Of a DNA stretch of 35,094 bases, positions 4,819-34,005 are shown in pieces. The number at the start of each line of letters is the position of its first letter. Position 1 is the first letter of the stretch. This DNA is from a virus: positions 1-35,094 of IMG/VR virus record IMGVR_UViG_3300042387_000288; one strand, given 5' to 3'. The translations under genes were made by a program, and so were the position numbers. The notes under the pieces are model-generated. The model worked only from the letters and a program-made list of their open reading frames with translations, was not told the origin of the DNA and did not search any database.

Positions 4819-5463
4819 TTACTCTATGGACCCCACCAATTCAGCGAGGTACTGCGCTCCGTGTGACAGAAGTGTACTGTTGATGTCTTCCCCCATAGGA
4901 AGCGACACGCGGACAGCGTTAGGCAGGGTATCGACTAGGCGTCGGGCAAGATCCTGCCCTGGATTAGACCCGTCTTCTTTGAGATCGTTATCAGTAACGA
5001 CAATGACTCGTCCGATTCCGTCAAAGCATCGAGCAAAGTGGGGCTTCCATGCGTTGACTCCTGCGACAGCAACGGCAGGTAGTCCTGCTGCGGTAGCGGC
5101 GATGGCATCGAGTTCCCCCTCTACGACGAGGACTTGTTCGACTGCGTCGATGATGGCTTGGACGTTGTAGAGGTGATGCTTCTGCCCCGTGGGGCTCGTG
5201 TATTTGGGCGACGAGTCATCGAGTTTACGGAACTTGAAAGCGACCACACCGCTGGCCGTTCGGTACGGGATGGAGAGGGTGTTGATGAACCTATCCTCAT
5301 GACCTGGCGCAGGTTCCGCCACGTATCCGAGAAGAAATTTTTCGGCATAGTCAAGTAGTCCTCTCTTCTTCAGGTATTCCTCGGCGGGTGAGCCCGCTAG
5401 TTCCATGTGGTAGTCGCTTGCTGCTCGGCTCCACATGTCTATGAGTTTCTGATTTGGTTTCAT
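4819..5463 (-). CDS. DNA primase, TOPRIM catalytic part (214 aa)
   Basis: The N-terminus has the DnaG-like EEYLKKRGLLDYAEKF block (residues 28-43), followed by IPYRTASGVVAFKFRKL. The TOPRIM fold follows, with the catalytic VVEGELDA at 113-120 and the metal-binding VVTDND at 155-160 (D158, D160). The zinc finger of a normal DnaG is absent and is encoded separately at 7212-7553, so primase is split in two. It would make RNA primers for phage replication with the ATPase encoded at 8183-9004. The ATG overlaps the stop of the upstream gene (ATGA). Confidence 0.85.
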   Translation of the reverse strand: MKPNQKLIDMWSRAASDYHMELAGSPAEEYLKKRGLLDYAEKFLLGYVAEPAPGHEDRFINTLSIPYRTASGVVAFKFRKLDDSSPKYTSPTGQKHHLYNVQAIIDAVEQVLVVEGELDAIAATAAGLPAVAVAGVNAWKPHFARCFDGIGRVIVVTDNDLKEDGSNPGQDLARRLVDTLPNAVRVSLPMGEDINSTLLSHGAQYLAELVGSIE

Positions 5464-6693: not shown

Positions 6694-7215
6694 TTACTCT
6701 CCTTGAATCAACTCACTCACTGGACCGCCAGAGTTTACGTCAAGGTCAATGGCAATGTCCATAGCGCGGTAAGGATTAGCGCCCGCCATGTAGGCGGCGA
6801 CGGCTAGACTTCCGCCTGTCCCGATGCCCATCACGTTGCGCTCGTCGAGCAGCACGGTCAGATCATTCTCGATCAGGAACAAGGTGCCGACCAGGGACAC
6901 GAGCGCCTGGAAATCGTACTCACCTTCCTTGGCTGGGCATGTCTCATCGAGTGCAGCACGTAGCGATGGTACGAAATGTCGTACCATATGCTCATACTCT
7001 GAGCAGCCATGTGCATAGAACGGTGGCTGCCACTGCCACAGGAACAGGTCGCATGCTGCGCCACTGCCAGCGACACCGAACAGGTACTGCCCGTCCCGCT
7101 CCATCACCTTGGGCTGCAGCACGTGGCGCATCGGCCTGTCTCCTGCCACGGTTCGGCTGTCCCCCAGTAGGCGGACCATGCCATCGTGGTGCTGGATGCC
7201 TAGAATTGTAGTCAC
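6694..7215 (-). CDS. HslV/proteasome-beta-like Ntn hydrolase (173 aa)
   Basis: The N-terminus after Met is TTILGI, the form needed for an N-terminal threonine nucleophile. Counting Thr as 1, D18 in LLGDSR and K35 in LQPKV align with the catalytic Asp17 and Lys33 of HslV. FGVAGSG and later GIGTGGSLAVAA match the conserved glycine strips of the family. The length is close to HslV (about 175). It would form a ring peptidase, normally fed by an ATPase; no HslU-like partner is in the window. The GTG start overlaps the stop of the CHC2 gene. Target proteins are unknown; host regulators or phage proteins are candidates. Confidence 0.75.
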   Translation of the reverse strand: MTTILGIQHHDGMVRLLGDSRTVAGDRPMRHVLQPKVMERDGQYLFGVAGSGAACDLFLWQWQPPFYAHGCSEYEHMVRHFVPSLRAALDETCPAKEGEYDFQALVSLVGTLFLIENDLTVLLDERNVMGIGTGGSLAVAAYMAGANPYRAMDIAIDLDVNSGGPVSELIQGE

Positions 7216-7553
7216 ACTACGCTCCTCAACTTAGGTGGAATCCATCTGCCACCCCTCGACTTGCCCCTGGATGGCCTTGTGCGGGCCGTAGAGCCACCTG
7301 TGAGCCTGTCTACCCACGCCCTGGCATCTTTGTACTCTAGATTTTCTAGGGCCATGACGAGGCTTACAGCGTTTCCGCCTGCCCCGCAGGCGTGGCAATG
7401 CCACAGCCCCTTGCCCCTGTTGACCGAGGCACTCGCGATCTTGTCCCCATGAACGGGACACTTCATCGGGTGCTCACCATGCCTAGGCTCAGGCAGGCCA
7501 TAGTGCTCGAACACTGCCAGCAGTTCAGCCTCAGCCTGCTCCTCATCCATCAT
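7212..7553 (-). CDS. DNA primase zinc-finger (CHC2) subunit (113 aa)
   Basis: The CHC2 zinc motif is complete: C32-P-V-H35 and C53-H-A-C56, with the usual ASVNRGKGLWHCHACGAGG context. The following helix (NAVSLVMALENLEY) and a basic C-terminal tail rich in Arg, Gly and Ser complete it. The domain reads DNA sequence in primases and works with the TOPRIM part encoded at 4819-5463. It starts at ATG 7553 overlapping the stop of the resolvase gene. A split primase is known in some actinobacteriophages. Confidence 0.8.
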   Translation of the reverse strand: MMDEEQAEAELLAVFEHYGLPEPRHGEHPMKCPVHGDKIASASVNRGKGLWHCHACGAGGNAVSLVMALENLEYKDARAWVDRLTGGSTARTRPSRGKSRGGRWIPPKLRSVV

Positions 7554-9005: not shown

Positions 9006-9446
9006 CTAGTTCGGGAACACCATGTCGCAGGTGGCCTGCTTGTAGTCGCCCCACGGTGAACCGTTCACGCAGACGTAGCCCTTGTAGGCACGGCCTGCCT
9101 TGTTGGTGCCGTTCTTCACGTAGCGGGGACCGTGCGAGCAGGTGCCAGCGGACGGGTCACCCTTCGTGTACACGTTGCCCCACTTGTCAGTCTTCTGCTC
9201 GATAGCGGCAGGAGTGTCGGTGATGTCGGTCGCTGCGATACCGCCAGCGGCCAGATTTTGTACCGCATTCGGTACGGTTGTGACAGGGGCAGCGTTGCTG
9301 CTCATGCCCATGTATGCCTTGACGGTGTTCAGTTCGTCAATGCGGCCCAGCATCTCTTCGAGAGTGTTGGCTCTGCCCGTAAGTAGATCATTGTTCGGCC
9401 CGACCTTGATGGTCAGGGAGAATGGGGACTCAGTGCTGTTACTCAT
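9006..9446 (-). CDS. Replication-associated protein with C-terminal zinc motif (146 aa)
   Basis: An N-terminal strand-rich segment (SPFSLTIKVGPN) and a helix (TLEEMLGRIDELN) are followed by a low-complexity linker. A C-terminal metal-binding-like region reads CSHGPRYVKNG, GYVCVNGSPWG, then TCDMVF. The spacing of CxH, C and C resembles zinc ribbons of phage single-strand-binding or recombination partners. Placement between a RecB-like nuclease and the helicase ATPase fits that role. It overlaps the nuclease stop by 4 nt (ATGA). Confidence 0.55.
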   Translation of the reverse strand: MSNSTESPFSLTIKVGPNNDLLTGRANTLEEMLGRIDELNTVKAYMGMSSNAAPVTTVPNAVQNLAAGGIAATDITDTPAAIEQKTDKWGNVYTKGDPSAGTCSHGPRYVKNGTNKAGRAYKGYVCVNGSPWGDYKQATCDMVFPN

Positions 9447-10114
9447 GACTTGCCTTCCTTCAATGGATTATTCATTGGATACTTTGCAGACTTGGAACCG
9501 TTCACTGCAATGCAGTAGTCACGGTAAGAGCAGTACGAGCAGTGGTCGCCGACATTCGCTGGGAAGAAACCCGTACCCATGTATGCGTTCATTGCTGCGA
9601 ACTGCTGGTCGAAGAAGTCTATGCCCCAAGGGGTGAGGTCCGTCAAGTCATCGAGCGCAGCCTTACGTGTCATGTAGTACGCGCCCCACTTGGGGCGGAT
9701 GTCATACGCCTGCTCGATAGCGGAGGCATACAGACCCAACTGCATGACGCCAGTAGGTGTGCGCGAACCTGTCTTGTAGTCCACGACGATCCAGTCCTGG
9801 CCGTTGCTGTAGATACCGTCAACGATCAGACGGATCGGTGACCCACCGAACGTGACCTGCGCTTCCCACTCGATACCAGGCTTGCCGTCAGGCATGGTCG
9901 CGATCTGCCAGCCGCACGTCTCAAGCCACTCCTTGTACTTCTCGATCTGCTGCAGGCCATCACCCTGCCACCAGTCAAGAGTCTCCCCATCAGGGTTGGC
10001 CTTCGTCCTGCGGCCAGCAGTACGCCACTGATCCAGCGGCAACTCATGCTTCTGCTCAGCCTCGATCAGCGCGTCACGCCATACGTCAGCCCACAGTTCA
10101 GTAAGACTCATCAT
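9443..10114 (-). CDS. RecB/Cas4-like PD-(D/E)XK nuclease, C-terminal part of a split gene (223 aa)
   Basis: The catalytic strip is RLIVDGIYSNGQDWIVVDYK, giving D and D-x-K of the nuclease core, followed by the QLGLYASAIEQAY helix. A C-terminal CSYCSYRDYC cluster resembles the iron-sulfur or zinc cysteines of Cas4-like enzymes. The N-terminal strip with the conserved SYSQMSTFYKC and GTAVHTAIE is missing and is encoded at 10274-10465. The start I prefer is ATG 10114, which overlaps the end of the zinc-ribbon gene; an open frame continues upstream but is the shadow of that gene. The two parts probably assemble as an exonuclease. Confidence 0.75.
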   Translation of the reverse strand: MMSLTELWADVWRDALIEAEQKHELPLDQWRTAGRRTKANPDGETLDWWQGDGLQQIEKYKEWLETCGWQIATMPDGKPGIEWEAQVTFGGSPIRLIVDGIYSNGQDWIVVDYKTGSRTPTGVMQLGLYASAIEQAYDIRPKWGAYYMTRKAALDDLTDLTPWGIDFFDQQFAAMNAYMGTGFFPANVGDHCSYCSYRDYCIAVNGSKSAKYPMNNPLKEGKS

Positions 10115-10277
10115 CAATCTCCGTCGGTACAGTGACGGGTGCATCGCACGCGGCACAGTAGCCGCTTGTCGTGTACCAGCCGATGGTGTTGTCCTCGTCA
10201 AACCTGACAAGAATCTTGAACGTGTCATGCCCGCAGTTCACGCAAGTACGGGAAGGGATCCCCCGTGTGTCTATCAT
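10098..10277 (-). CDS. Zinc-ribbon protein between the two nuclease parts (59 aa)
   Basis: The product begins MIDTRGIPSRTCVNCGHD and holds a second knuckle GYCAACDAPVTV, so CVNC and CAAC frame a strand-rich middle (KILVRFDED). This is a compact zinc ribbon. The ATG at 10277 overlaps the stop of the N-terminal nuclease part (ATGA), and the last 17 nt overlap the start of the C-terminal part. All three are therefore likely to be translated together. It might bind DNA or bridge the two nuclease pieces; this is inference. Confidence 0.7.
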   Translation of the reverse strand: MIDTRGIPSRTCVNCGHDTFKILVRFDEDNTIGWYTTSGYCAACDAPVTVPTEIDDESY

Positions 10278-10465
10278 GACTTAGATGTCTTCTCATAATG
10301 CGCATGGTTGATCTTCTCGATAGCCGTATGCACGGCAGTGCCAGCCACCAGATACACGGCAGGCACCTCAGGTACTTGAGCAATCTTAGAAAGGTAATAC
10401 TGATGAGCACACTTGTAGAACGTACTCATCTGCGAGTACGACCTGTGTGCTGGCGCTGTATTCAC
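10274..10465 (-). CDS. RecB/Cas4-like nuclease, N-terminal part of a split gene (63 aa)
   Basis: The short product contains SYSQMSTFYKCAHQYYL and VAGTAVHTAIEKI, the two N-terminal hallmarks of the PDDEXK_1 / Cas4-like family, including the conserved His of the GTxVH motif. It stops (TGA at 10274) where the family would continue into the DxK core, found in a separate ORF at 9443-10114. The GTG start at 10465 overlaps the upstream stop. It could be read as a pseudogene fragment, but the clean overlaps with both neighbours argue for a functional gene split. Confidence 0.7.
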   Translation of the reverse strand: MNTAPAHRSYSQMSTFYKCAHQYYLSKIAQVPEVPAVYLVAGTAVHTAIEKINHAHYEKTSKS

Positions 10466-31362: not shown

Positions 31363-34005
31363 TTATCCCTCCAGTGCTTGCTTAAGGCGCTTAGCGCCGT
31401 AGTAGCGACGAATCGCTTCTAGATATTCAGGATCGTTTCGGCGGGACTTGACTGCAGCGAGTGCCTTAGTCATGCCCTGCTTGTTGATCTGATCGATAAC
31501 TGACTGGCGGACAGCCGAACGTCCCTTGAGGAACTTTGACTCTCCAGCCGCACCGAACTTCTTGTTCGGCTTAGCCTTGGCCTTAGCCTTCTCGAACTGT
31601 TCCCGACGTGCGTTCAACCTTCTTGTACGAGCGTCATCCATAGCCGCTTGCCCAGCGGGCTTCGACTTAGCATCGTTAGGCGAAACGTCACTATCGCGAG
31701 TTATCCCGAGCGCTGAACCTGTAGCGACAACTGCACCAGTGGCGGCGACACCCTTCGCGATGGCCTGCGCCTTGTCCTTTTGCTTCGGTGTGACCTTCGG
31801 CTTCATACGCTCGTCGAGAGCCTTCTGCGCCTTAGTGTCAGTAACGTAGCGAGTGCCAGCCTTGTTAGTGAAAACTCCACGCTTACTAGCGGGGGTTTCA
31901 CGCGACTTGAACTTGCTGTCCGCTGGACGCGGTGGCAGAGGATCCTGCTTGGGGGCCTTGGGCCGCTTAGGCGTAGACTTCTTCGGCGCTGCTTCTGGCT
32001 GCTGCTCAGCAGGCTTGGGCTTGCTTGCCCGAGGAGCCTTAGGCGTCGGAGCCTCTGGAGTCTCTGCTTTAGTTGCCTCAACAGGCTTTGCGTCCTCAAC
32101 CTTTTCCTTCTTCGCCGAAGGTCTCTTCGGAGTAGAAGCAGCAGGAGTCGGAGATGCTGACTTAGACGGTGCCTTCATGCCAGGACGGAACTTAGTCTTG
32201 CTAGCGCCAGCCTTAGTCGGAGACTTCATCGCTGCAGGCCGAGTAGTGGCAGACTCGGGAGTTGCCTCTGGGGCTTCTTCCTTCGCCTTAGTTTCTGTCT
32301 TGGCTTTGCCCTTAGACTTTGCAGCAGGAGCCTTCGCCGAGGGAGCCTTTGCCTTGGGGGCTGGCTTCGCGTCAGGAAGGTTATCAATTACGTTGCGGTA
32401 CTCAGGAACTTCCTTGCCAGGACGGATGCCCTGGAACTGCTTCCTTGCCTTAATTGACTCTTCGCCGACATAAGCCTCTTCGGTCAATTTCGGACGCTTA
32501 GTCATCTCAGGCTCGCCAGCCTTGCCAGTCTTGCCCTCAAGCCTAAAGCGAGAACCAGTCTCCTTAAAACCACCCTTACGGGAAGGAGCCTTGGGTGCGA
32601 TGCTCGGTGCGACATTGCTAGGACGATCAGTCGGAGTATCGGTTCCAGGCTTTACACTCTGCTGCTTAACGTCAGCCTTGGCACGAGCATCCGCAATAGC
32701 CTTATCATACTTGTTCTTCGCCGACTTGTACTTAGCATCAGTGGCAAAATTTTCACGCTTTGGTGCTACACGAACCTTTGCTGGTCGAGTAGTAAACTTG
32801 CTCTTTCTTGAGTCATAGGTCTTTCCGCCACGCGTTCCCTCGTTCGGGTAACGCACAGGAGGACGCTCAGGAATAACCCCGCCAGGAGTTTCCTTCAACA
32901 TCTCAGCGTATTGAGCGCCACGCGCACGATCTACGGCGGCTTCTTCCTTCAATGCCGTGCTTTGGATTCTTGCTTCCGTAGATCCTTCTTGCTTCCCAGC
33001 CTTGTAGAAGTCTCCCTTGGCCTCACGGAATCGAGCCCTGGAAACATCCTCACGCATCTTTTCTAGCGGAGTTCCAGTGCGCTGCTCCGCTGGAGCATTA
33101 GCCGCCTTTTTCTCGGCTGCGTTGCTCTTACGCTTCCATTCCTTAACAGCGGCCTTGAACTTTGCCTTCTCCGCTTCGCCATACTTGCCGTCAACCTTAA
33201 ACTGCTGATACTGGGGCCTTGGCGCGTCAAACGGCTTAATCGTTTCGCCAGCAACATCTGTCGGCCTAGTTGCACGGTACTCTTCAGGAATAACGCGAGG
33301 CGACCTAGGGCGCCCACCGATCTTAGGGGTGTCATCAGTCTTGATGGCAACACCCTTAGTGGGCGGAACAGTCGGAGGTGACTTCTTCGGCCCTTGCTTT
33401 GGAGTAACCTTTACTTGATTTGCATTAATCTTGGTGCGCGACTCGCCCGTCTTCTCTGCAATCTTGGCAAGGTCAGCACGACGCTGCTTGTTAACCATTG
33501 CAGGGATCTGCCTTGGCTTGCCCGCCCAAGGATTTTCTGCAGTTGCCTTGGCAACCTTCGGGAGGGTAGCCTTGGTTGCAGCGTACGCAGGCGTAGGATT
33601 AGCAAGAGCCTTAGCACCCTTACCGACGGCCTGAAAGCCCTTAGCGGCTGCCTTAACTCCAGGCACGGGAAGAAGAGAAGCAAGAGCCAAGTAATCCTCA
33701 GCGTCAAGCGCCTGCCGATTTACAATTTTGCCAGCAGTCTTCTGCGGCATTACAAAATCAGCGGCACCTCCGCCGATCTCATCAATACGTTGAAGAACAG
33801 ACTTCGAAGCACCAGGAGCCTGCGGCTTAAACTTCGTGCCATAGCGACTAGTCGCAACGACATCGTTGCTTTCTTTGCGCGTGGTGATAGTAGGCTGCTT
33901 GGGCGGCGTCCAAGTAGACTTCTTGGGCAGACTCCTCTTGATGGAAGCCGAAGCGCGACGTGCGTCGCTTTCGCGCTTAGTCATTCCAAACTTTTTGGGG
34001 GCCAT
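31363..34005 (-). CDS. Very large Lys/Ala/Pro-rich basic protein (880 aa)
   Basis: Most of the length is low-complexity and strongly basic, with histone-H1-like strips (KAKAPSAKAPAAKSKGKAK, EAAPKKSTPKRPKAPKQDP). Some ordered parts occur near the N-terminus (DAEDYLALASLLPVPGVKAAAK) and the C-terminus (EYLEAIRRYYGAKRLKQAL). The gene lies in the virion unit. A DNA-binding virion protein that helps condense or eject DNA is the simplest reading. There is no enzyme motif. Its base composition matches its neighbours, so recent transfer is not suggested. Confidence 0.55.
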   Translation of the reverse strand: MAPKKFGMTKRESDARRASASIKRSLPKKSTWTPPKQPTITTRKESNDVVATSRYGTKFKPQAPGASKSVLQRIDEIGGGAADFVMPQKTAGKIVNRQALDAEDYLALASLLPVPGVKAAAKGFQAVGKGAKALANPTPAYAATKATLPKVAKATAENPWAGKPRQIPAMVNKQRRADLAKIAEKTGESRTKINANQVKVTPKQGPKKSPPTVPPTKGVAIKTDDTPKIGGRPRSPRVIPEEYRATRPTDVAGETIKPFDAPRPQYQQFKVDGKYGEAEKAKFKAAVKEWKRKSNAAEKKAANAPAEQRTGTPLEKMREDVSRARFREAKGDFYKAGKQEGSTEARIQSTALKEEAAVDRARGAQYAEMLKETPGGVIPERPPVRYPNEGTRGGKTYDSRKSKFTTRPAKVRVAPKRENFATDAKYKSAKNKYDKAIADARAKADVKQQSVKPGTDTPTDRPSNVAPSIAPKAPSRKGGFKETGSRFRLEGKTGKAGEPEMTKRPKLTEEAYVGEESIKARKQFQGIRPGKEVPEYRNVIDNLPDAKPAPKAKAPSAKAPAAKSKGKAKTETKAKEEAPEATPESATTRPAAMKSPTKAGASKTKFRPGMKAPSKSASPTPAASTPKRPSAKKEKVEDAKPVEATKAETPEAPTPKAPRASKPKPAEQQPEAAPKKSTPKRPKAPKQDPLPPRPADSKFKSRETPASKRGVFTNKAGTRYVTDTKAQKALDERMKPKVTPKQKDKAQAIAKGVAATGAVVATGSALGITRDSDVSPNDAKSKPAGQAAMDDARTRRLNARREQFEKAKAKAKPNKKFGAAGESKFLKGRSAVRQSVIDQINKQGMTKALAAVKSRRNDPEYLEAIRRYYGAKRLKQALEG

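Follow-up and report, generated by a model that had tools for sequence, protein, structure and literature searches.

The window, a 35,094-nucleotide stretch of DNA from a virus, contains three overlapping open reading frames (ORFs) on the minus strand, in the order nuclease N half, zinc ribbon, nuclease C half. The first (positions 10274–10465, minus strand) encodes 63 aa and has a GTG start with GGAGG a few nucleotides upstream; the second (10098–10277, minus strand) encodes a 59-aa protein with the pattern CxxC-x25-CxxC; and the third (9443–10114, minus strand) encodes 223 aa from its own ATG with GGAG upstream. GGAG(G) motifs thus precede the starts of both nuclease halves, the zinc-ribbon start having only a weak one. 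The stop of the N half and the start of the zinc-ribbon ORF overlap by 4 nt (ATGA), and the zinc-ribbon ORF overlaps the C half by 17 nt, or by 14 nt if its second ATG is used. These coordinates, frames and overlaps are the same as in the original prediction, which described a nuclease divided into two genes with a nested zinc ribbon.

Each nuclease half by itself exceeds the 22-bit cut-off of the Pfam family PF12705, with 29.9 bits for the N half (profile positions 3–50) and 48.1 bits for the C half (profile positions 82–246). On phrog_1870, which is 313 positions long, the N half matches 12–68 and the C half 73–300, so that the two matches adjoin without overlapping and the split takes away almost nothing of the family. 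The C ORF alone, limited to 73–300, accordingly does not represent the full family; as originally predicted, the first ORF is the N-terminal family part and the third is the carrier of the D, DxK and C-terminal cysteines. Against the profile of Cas4 proper (PF01930), the C half reaches 21.1 bits, below the cut-off of 22.7, and the nuclease is for this reason called Cas4-like rather than Cas4. A PDB sequence search with the C half returned nothing significant.

The N half carries the first helices, the first cysteine of the predicted iron-sulfur site, C19 (codon 10411–10409), and the motif-I His, H46 (codon 10330–10328), while the C half carries D99, D112-x-K114, Q125xxxY129 and Cys2–4, namely C192, C195 and C201 (C-x2-C-x5-C). 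The stretch from D99 to DxK, comprising invariant residues of the PD-(D/E)XK site, lies at 9773–9820 (minus strand), and the codons of Cys2–Cys4, which belong to the predicted iron staple and do not vary among the complete C halves, lie at 9512–9541 (minus strand). The motif-I His, D, DxK and QxxxY of the PD-(D/E)XK_1/RecB-like family are therefore all present over the two ORFs, and the iron-staple pattern of one N-terminal Cys plus a C-terminal C-x2-C-x5-C is likewise complete, but divided between them. All three genes are under strong purifying selection, with dN/dS of about 0.03–0.06 for the N half, about 0.05 for the zinc ribbon and about 0.06–0.09 for the C half.

We modeled the nuclease with AF2 as one read-through chain in which the stops were read as residues. 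In this model (pTM 0.81), pLDDT is 92–97 in the N half and 90–98 over most of the length of the C half, falling below 50 in the 36 linker residues 71–106, and the break lies between a helix ending at residue 66 and a helix starting at residue 121. The two halves are thus predicted to fold as one nuclease domain around a disordered linker; because a single chain was modeled, and because AF2 also knows the superfamily, this result speaks for compatible surfaces and not for the association of two chains. In a Foldseek search with the model, the best match was the Cas4-family protein ACE1, followed by AdnA, Dna2, Exo5 and SSO0001, and the alignment spans both halves.

We classified 155 distinct records; a scan with the C half of Planktophila phage LanE43AprE7 (hereafter E7) had matched 305 related stretches in IMG/VR, and the best 80 of 305 were retained. 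Among the matches listed, both halves are present in 145 records, and in 130 of these they form separate ORFs divided at the same loop. Clustering at 90% identity gives 30 split and 15 single-chain clusters (45 in all, among the matches listed), a fairer count than that of records, since many contigs sample the same phages. Sorted by junction, the 155 records among the matches listed comprise 76 with a split and no insert, 48 with a split and a zinc ribbon (the window counted in), one, L144, with a zinc ribbon plus a 56-aa ORF, five with another insert (L128, L134, L100, L101 and L103), 15 with a single chain and 10 that are incomplete. The trio of ORFs recurs in IMG/VR contigs of many metagenomes at about 100% down to about 45% identity, for example about 99–100% in L001, about 90% in L002 and L003, and 54–58% in L004 and L006.

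The split without an insert is exemplified by L036, where the halves overlap by 8 nt, and by L063 (record OX376640), where they overlap by 17 nt, the N half lying at 31712–31897 and the C half at 31881–32489 of that record. OX376640 and OX376641 are E7 and LanE43AprF5 (F5), cultured lytic phages of a Nanopelagicales strain (PMC10202952), and both have the split without an insert; the main text of the paper that describes them makes no mention of Cas4, RecB or a split (PMC10202952). The records L063, L160 and L163, which represent these two phages, carry no gene annotation in the collection, so annotation-based searches miss their split nuclease. The two halves together amount to 286 aa in the window and 263 aa in E7, inside the single-chain range. 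A single chain was found in 11 of 11 other GenBank phages, from Mycobacterium, Rhodococcus, Streptomyces, Thermobifida and Cutibacterium hosts, and a single nuclease ORF occurs also in L053 and L153–L155; the single chains measure about 260–318 residues, in keeping with the figure of about 290 originally given for actinophage homologs. By these sequence comparisons, the putative split nuclease is present in a wide group of freshwater actinobacterial phages. Scans of genome contigs with A1 and with the E7 C half returned no relative and hence, by that route, no host of the window clade.

Occurrence in many independent assemblies and in the two sequenced isolates E7 and F5 rules out chance and an assembly error, and, together with the strong purifying selection, makes a decaying pseudogene or a faulty assembly or sequence a negligible explanation. 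Its one point of support is L026, where a stop at about 1208–1210 interrupts the C half just before DxK in an otherwise intact trio, representing a sequencing error or a decaying copy. Two sets of candidates were set aside during this survey. GenBank entries of the type "Cas4 exonuclease | hypothetical protein" had been considered as further splits but proved to be single-chain genes overlapping a neighbor, and L038, with a weak, distant C-type match covering hmm positions 56–134 only, was put aside as another nuclease family.

In a tree built on the N and C halves of the 45 clusters, the split rows fall into three groups separated by single-chain rows, namely the window clade, the clade of L036, L144 and L146, and the E7 clade, so that three changes are implied; an AU test nevertheless does not reject a single split clade (p-AU 0.081; 0.23 without three long rows). 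The history could accordingly consist of one fission with later fusion, or of several fissions. Across the three split clades, C19, H46, the D, the DxK, the Q-Y and Cys2–4 are invariant.

The content of the junction is less constant than the split. All 19 tree rows of the window clade have the zinc ribbon at the junction, coupled to its neighbors by start/stop overlaps, so the order of split and insertion is not defined by that clade alone. Most split loci, however, have no zinc ribbon, including L036, although it is sister to the zinc-ribbon-bearing L144 and L146. In the E7 clade, the insert of L128 and L134 is an ORF of 109–114 aa, while in L100, L101 and L103 a 107-aa member of this ORF family is accompanied by a 218-aa ORF; these inserts lie at L100 3045–4017, L128 3682–4011 and L134 3661–4005, and the L134 copy of the 107–114 aa family had no PHROG match. 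Because the insert varies while the split stays, both in the L036/L144/L146 clade and in the E7 clade, the two are separable there, whichever the direction of change.

The zinc ribbon itself has invariant cysteines (C12, C15, C41 and C44) in 20 relatives and is modeled by AF2 as three-stranded with a pLDDT of 89. It had no curated family match above cut-off, the fold search with its model gave no confident match to a solved structure, and tblastn of the window copy against GenBank phages returned nothing; the L144 copy, searched in the same phages, matched E7 and F5 only. In E7, the zinc ribbon lies 5.7 kb from the nuclease on the opposite strand, and in L153 and L154 about 1.8 kb downstream of a single-chain nuclease. 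A zinc-ribbon relative at L007 4704–5036, in a 67-kb phage contig, has no nuclease half adjoining it. Being found in several contexts, the zinc ribbon is a small phage gene in its own right for which the junction is one of several sites.

These distributions bear on the original proposal that an intact nuclease gene was divided by a zinc-ribbon gene whose product would serve as bridge or regulator of the two parts. The constant presence of the zinc ribbon at the junction of the window clade, its start/stop coupling and the purifying selection on it would fit such a history; yet 76 split records among the matches listed, E7 and F5 included, have no insert, others have unrelated ones (L100, L128, L134), L036 lacks the zinc ribbon that its sisters have, and zinc ribbons occur away from the nuclease (L007, E7, L153/L154), even in phages where it is a single chain. 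We therefore consider it highly improbable that the zinc ribbon was the cause of the division, and neither this part of the proposal nor the bridging or regulatory role is sustained, whereas its other part, a divided nuclease that is probably assembled in trans, is supported. The sequences point instead to the junction as an insertion spot for unrelated small genes in an already divided nuclease gene, and the zinc ribbon is presumably dispensable for the nuclease. The zinc-ribbon insert had no HNH or GIY-YIG match, and the other loci have either no insert or ORFs of no assigned family.

The two halves might still be joined during translation. All 76 no-insert loci among the matches listed have the C half in the +1 frame relative to the N half and overlapping it by 8 nt or more, an arrangement in which a +1 shift could join them, and the two halves of the window happen to share one frame. 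However, the frame relation is lost where inserts exist, zinc-ribbon loci showing 0 or +2; the window frame has three stops separating the halves; the C half has the ATG and GGAG noted above; and the insert separates the halves by up to 926 bp. The codon ahead of the N stop varies as well (GAA, AAC, AAT, GGT, GAC or GAG), with no conserved slippery codon, and the variable frame and variable codon together argue that no common frameshift, readthrough or bypass yields a fusion. A single polypeptide made by frameshifting, readthrough or ribosome bypassing is thus highly unlikely, although a low-level +1 frameshift product may exist in the no-insert clades. Neither an intein nor an intron was found at the junction, where the insert forms an ORF of its own whose only features are those of a zinc ribbon, and an Rfam scan detected no intron and no other RNA family, a match to sR3 (20 bits versus 41) being discarded as chance. 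Two separate chains are the plain reading of these sequences.

Downstream of the nuclease lie a 146-aa gene, a DnaB-like helicase, a WhiB-like gene, a RusA-like resolvase and parts of a primase, a neighborhood that is an actinophage replication module. The WhiB-like gene, along with the kinship to Planktophila phages, suggests an actinobacterial host for the window phage. The 146-aa product of the next gene (9006–9446, minus strand) has a Cys/His-rich, zinc-binding-like tail (CSHGPRYVKNGTNKAGRAYKGYVC...C), and L004, L006 and E7 (L163 32609–32992) likewise have such a gene after the nuclease. The primase is also divided between two genes, one for a zinc-binding part of 113 aa (phrog_360) and one for a TOPRIM-like part of 214 aa (phrog_849/47), at 7212–7553 and 4819–5463 (minus strand), separated in the window by three genes, one of them for an HslV-like peptidase; in E7, the primase-like parts are adjacent, overlapping ORFs (L163 34482–34871 and 34720–35346).

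Taken together, these observations lead us to propose, with a probability of about 0.82, that the locus encodes a two-subunit RecB/Cas4-like "iron staple" PD-(D/E)XK nuclease of an actinophage replication/recombination module, assembled in trans. Judging from the sequences, the enzyme is probably put together from two chains, which, by analogy with iron-staple nucleases, whose cluster is bound by a single cysteine close to the N-terminus together with three close to the C-terminus (PMC3466216, PMC4176176), probably share one predicted iron-sulfur cluster. Fission in the loop that links the N-terminal helices to the remainder of the domain would have produced two genes with their own starts, and chains of ~60 aa and ~200–225 aa would be translated side by side from one mRNA and dock as the corresponding parts do in the single-chain enzyme. 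The cluster, to which the small chain would supply one ligand and the large chain three, would lock the two together, and the motif-I His of the small chain would form part of the active site. The zinc ribbon would be a separate small phage protein that settled in a permissive junction. The role of the nuclease is most likely the processing of DNA ends during phage replication or recombination.

One Cas4 that has been studied does not require the cluster for activity (PMC4176176), and hence something other than the staple may hold the chains together. That Cys mutants of this enzyme remain active (PMC4176176), and that the C half contains the D and DxK, would also agree with the C half being active on its own, either without a staple or with a different protein as partner, and with another function for the N half. 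We give this little chance, given that the N half retains the family's own signature (Cys1, His, RSxSQ-like) under a low dN/dS and, in all close relatives with a contig long enough, precedes the C half by no more than 1 kb. A more far-reaching variant of the two-chain reading, in which fission occurred two or three times independently at this loop and was retained because assembly around a shared cluster is useful in itself, for instance as a switch in which assembly depends on iron or redox state, appears doubtful.

If the two chains do share the cluster, this would be a natural two-part iron-staple nuclease, which we found in no paper; our literature search, with limited coverage of subscription journals, returned none describing a split Cas4. 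The role of the staple in Cas4, AddB and Dna2 nucleases would then become directly testable, as the ligands would come from separate chains, and, as the split is present in the cultured E7 and F5, such tests could use lytic phages that infect a bacterial group among the most abundant in freshwater. Annotation can miss the enzyme, because the N half, at 60 aa, is readily discarded for being so short an ORF. The junction, occupied by several unrelated genes, also illustrates clearly how a split gene can act as an insertion site when phage genomes are compact.

The closest known relatives are the single-chain phage Cas4-like PF12705 exonucleases of mycobacteriophages and of Rhodococcus, Streptomyces, Thermobifida and Cutibacterium phages (phrog_1870), which have the same domain, catalytic residues and four cysteines and, like the window nuclease, are often near a DnaB-like helicase, but consist of one chain of about 260–318 aa in 11/11 cases, whereas the window has two chains cut after the first helices. 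AddB, Cas4 (SSO0001), Dna2 and Exo5 share with the window protein one N-terminal and three C-terminal cysteines around a RecB-like domain, as well as the fold match, but their staple closes one chain, whereas the cluster predicted here would join two. Split phage enzymes acting in trans include Aeh1 NrdA (mobE), the 43A/43B DNA polymerase of Aeromonas phages 44RR and 25, and T4 topoisomerase with gene 60 (mobA), and the 43A/43B split is found both with and without an inserted gene (PMC2988022). In these three systems, as in the nuclease described here, a contiguous phage gene has been cut in two; in contrast to them, the inserts here are not homing endonucleases, the cut parts the predicted metal-cluster ligands, and the split is spread far wider. 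Split phage enzymes are already known as a kind, and the present one differs in its cargo and in the division of predicted metal-cluster ligands between chains.
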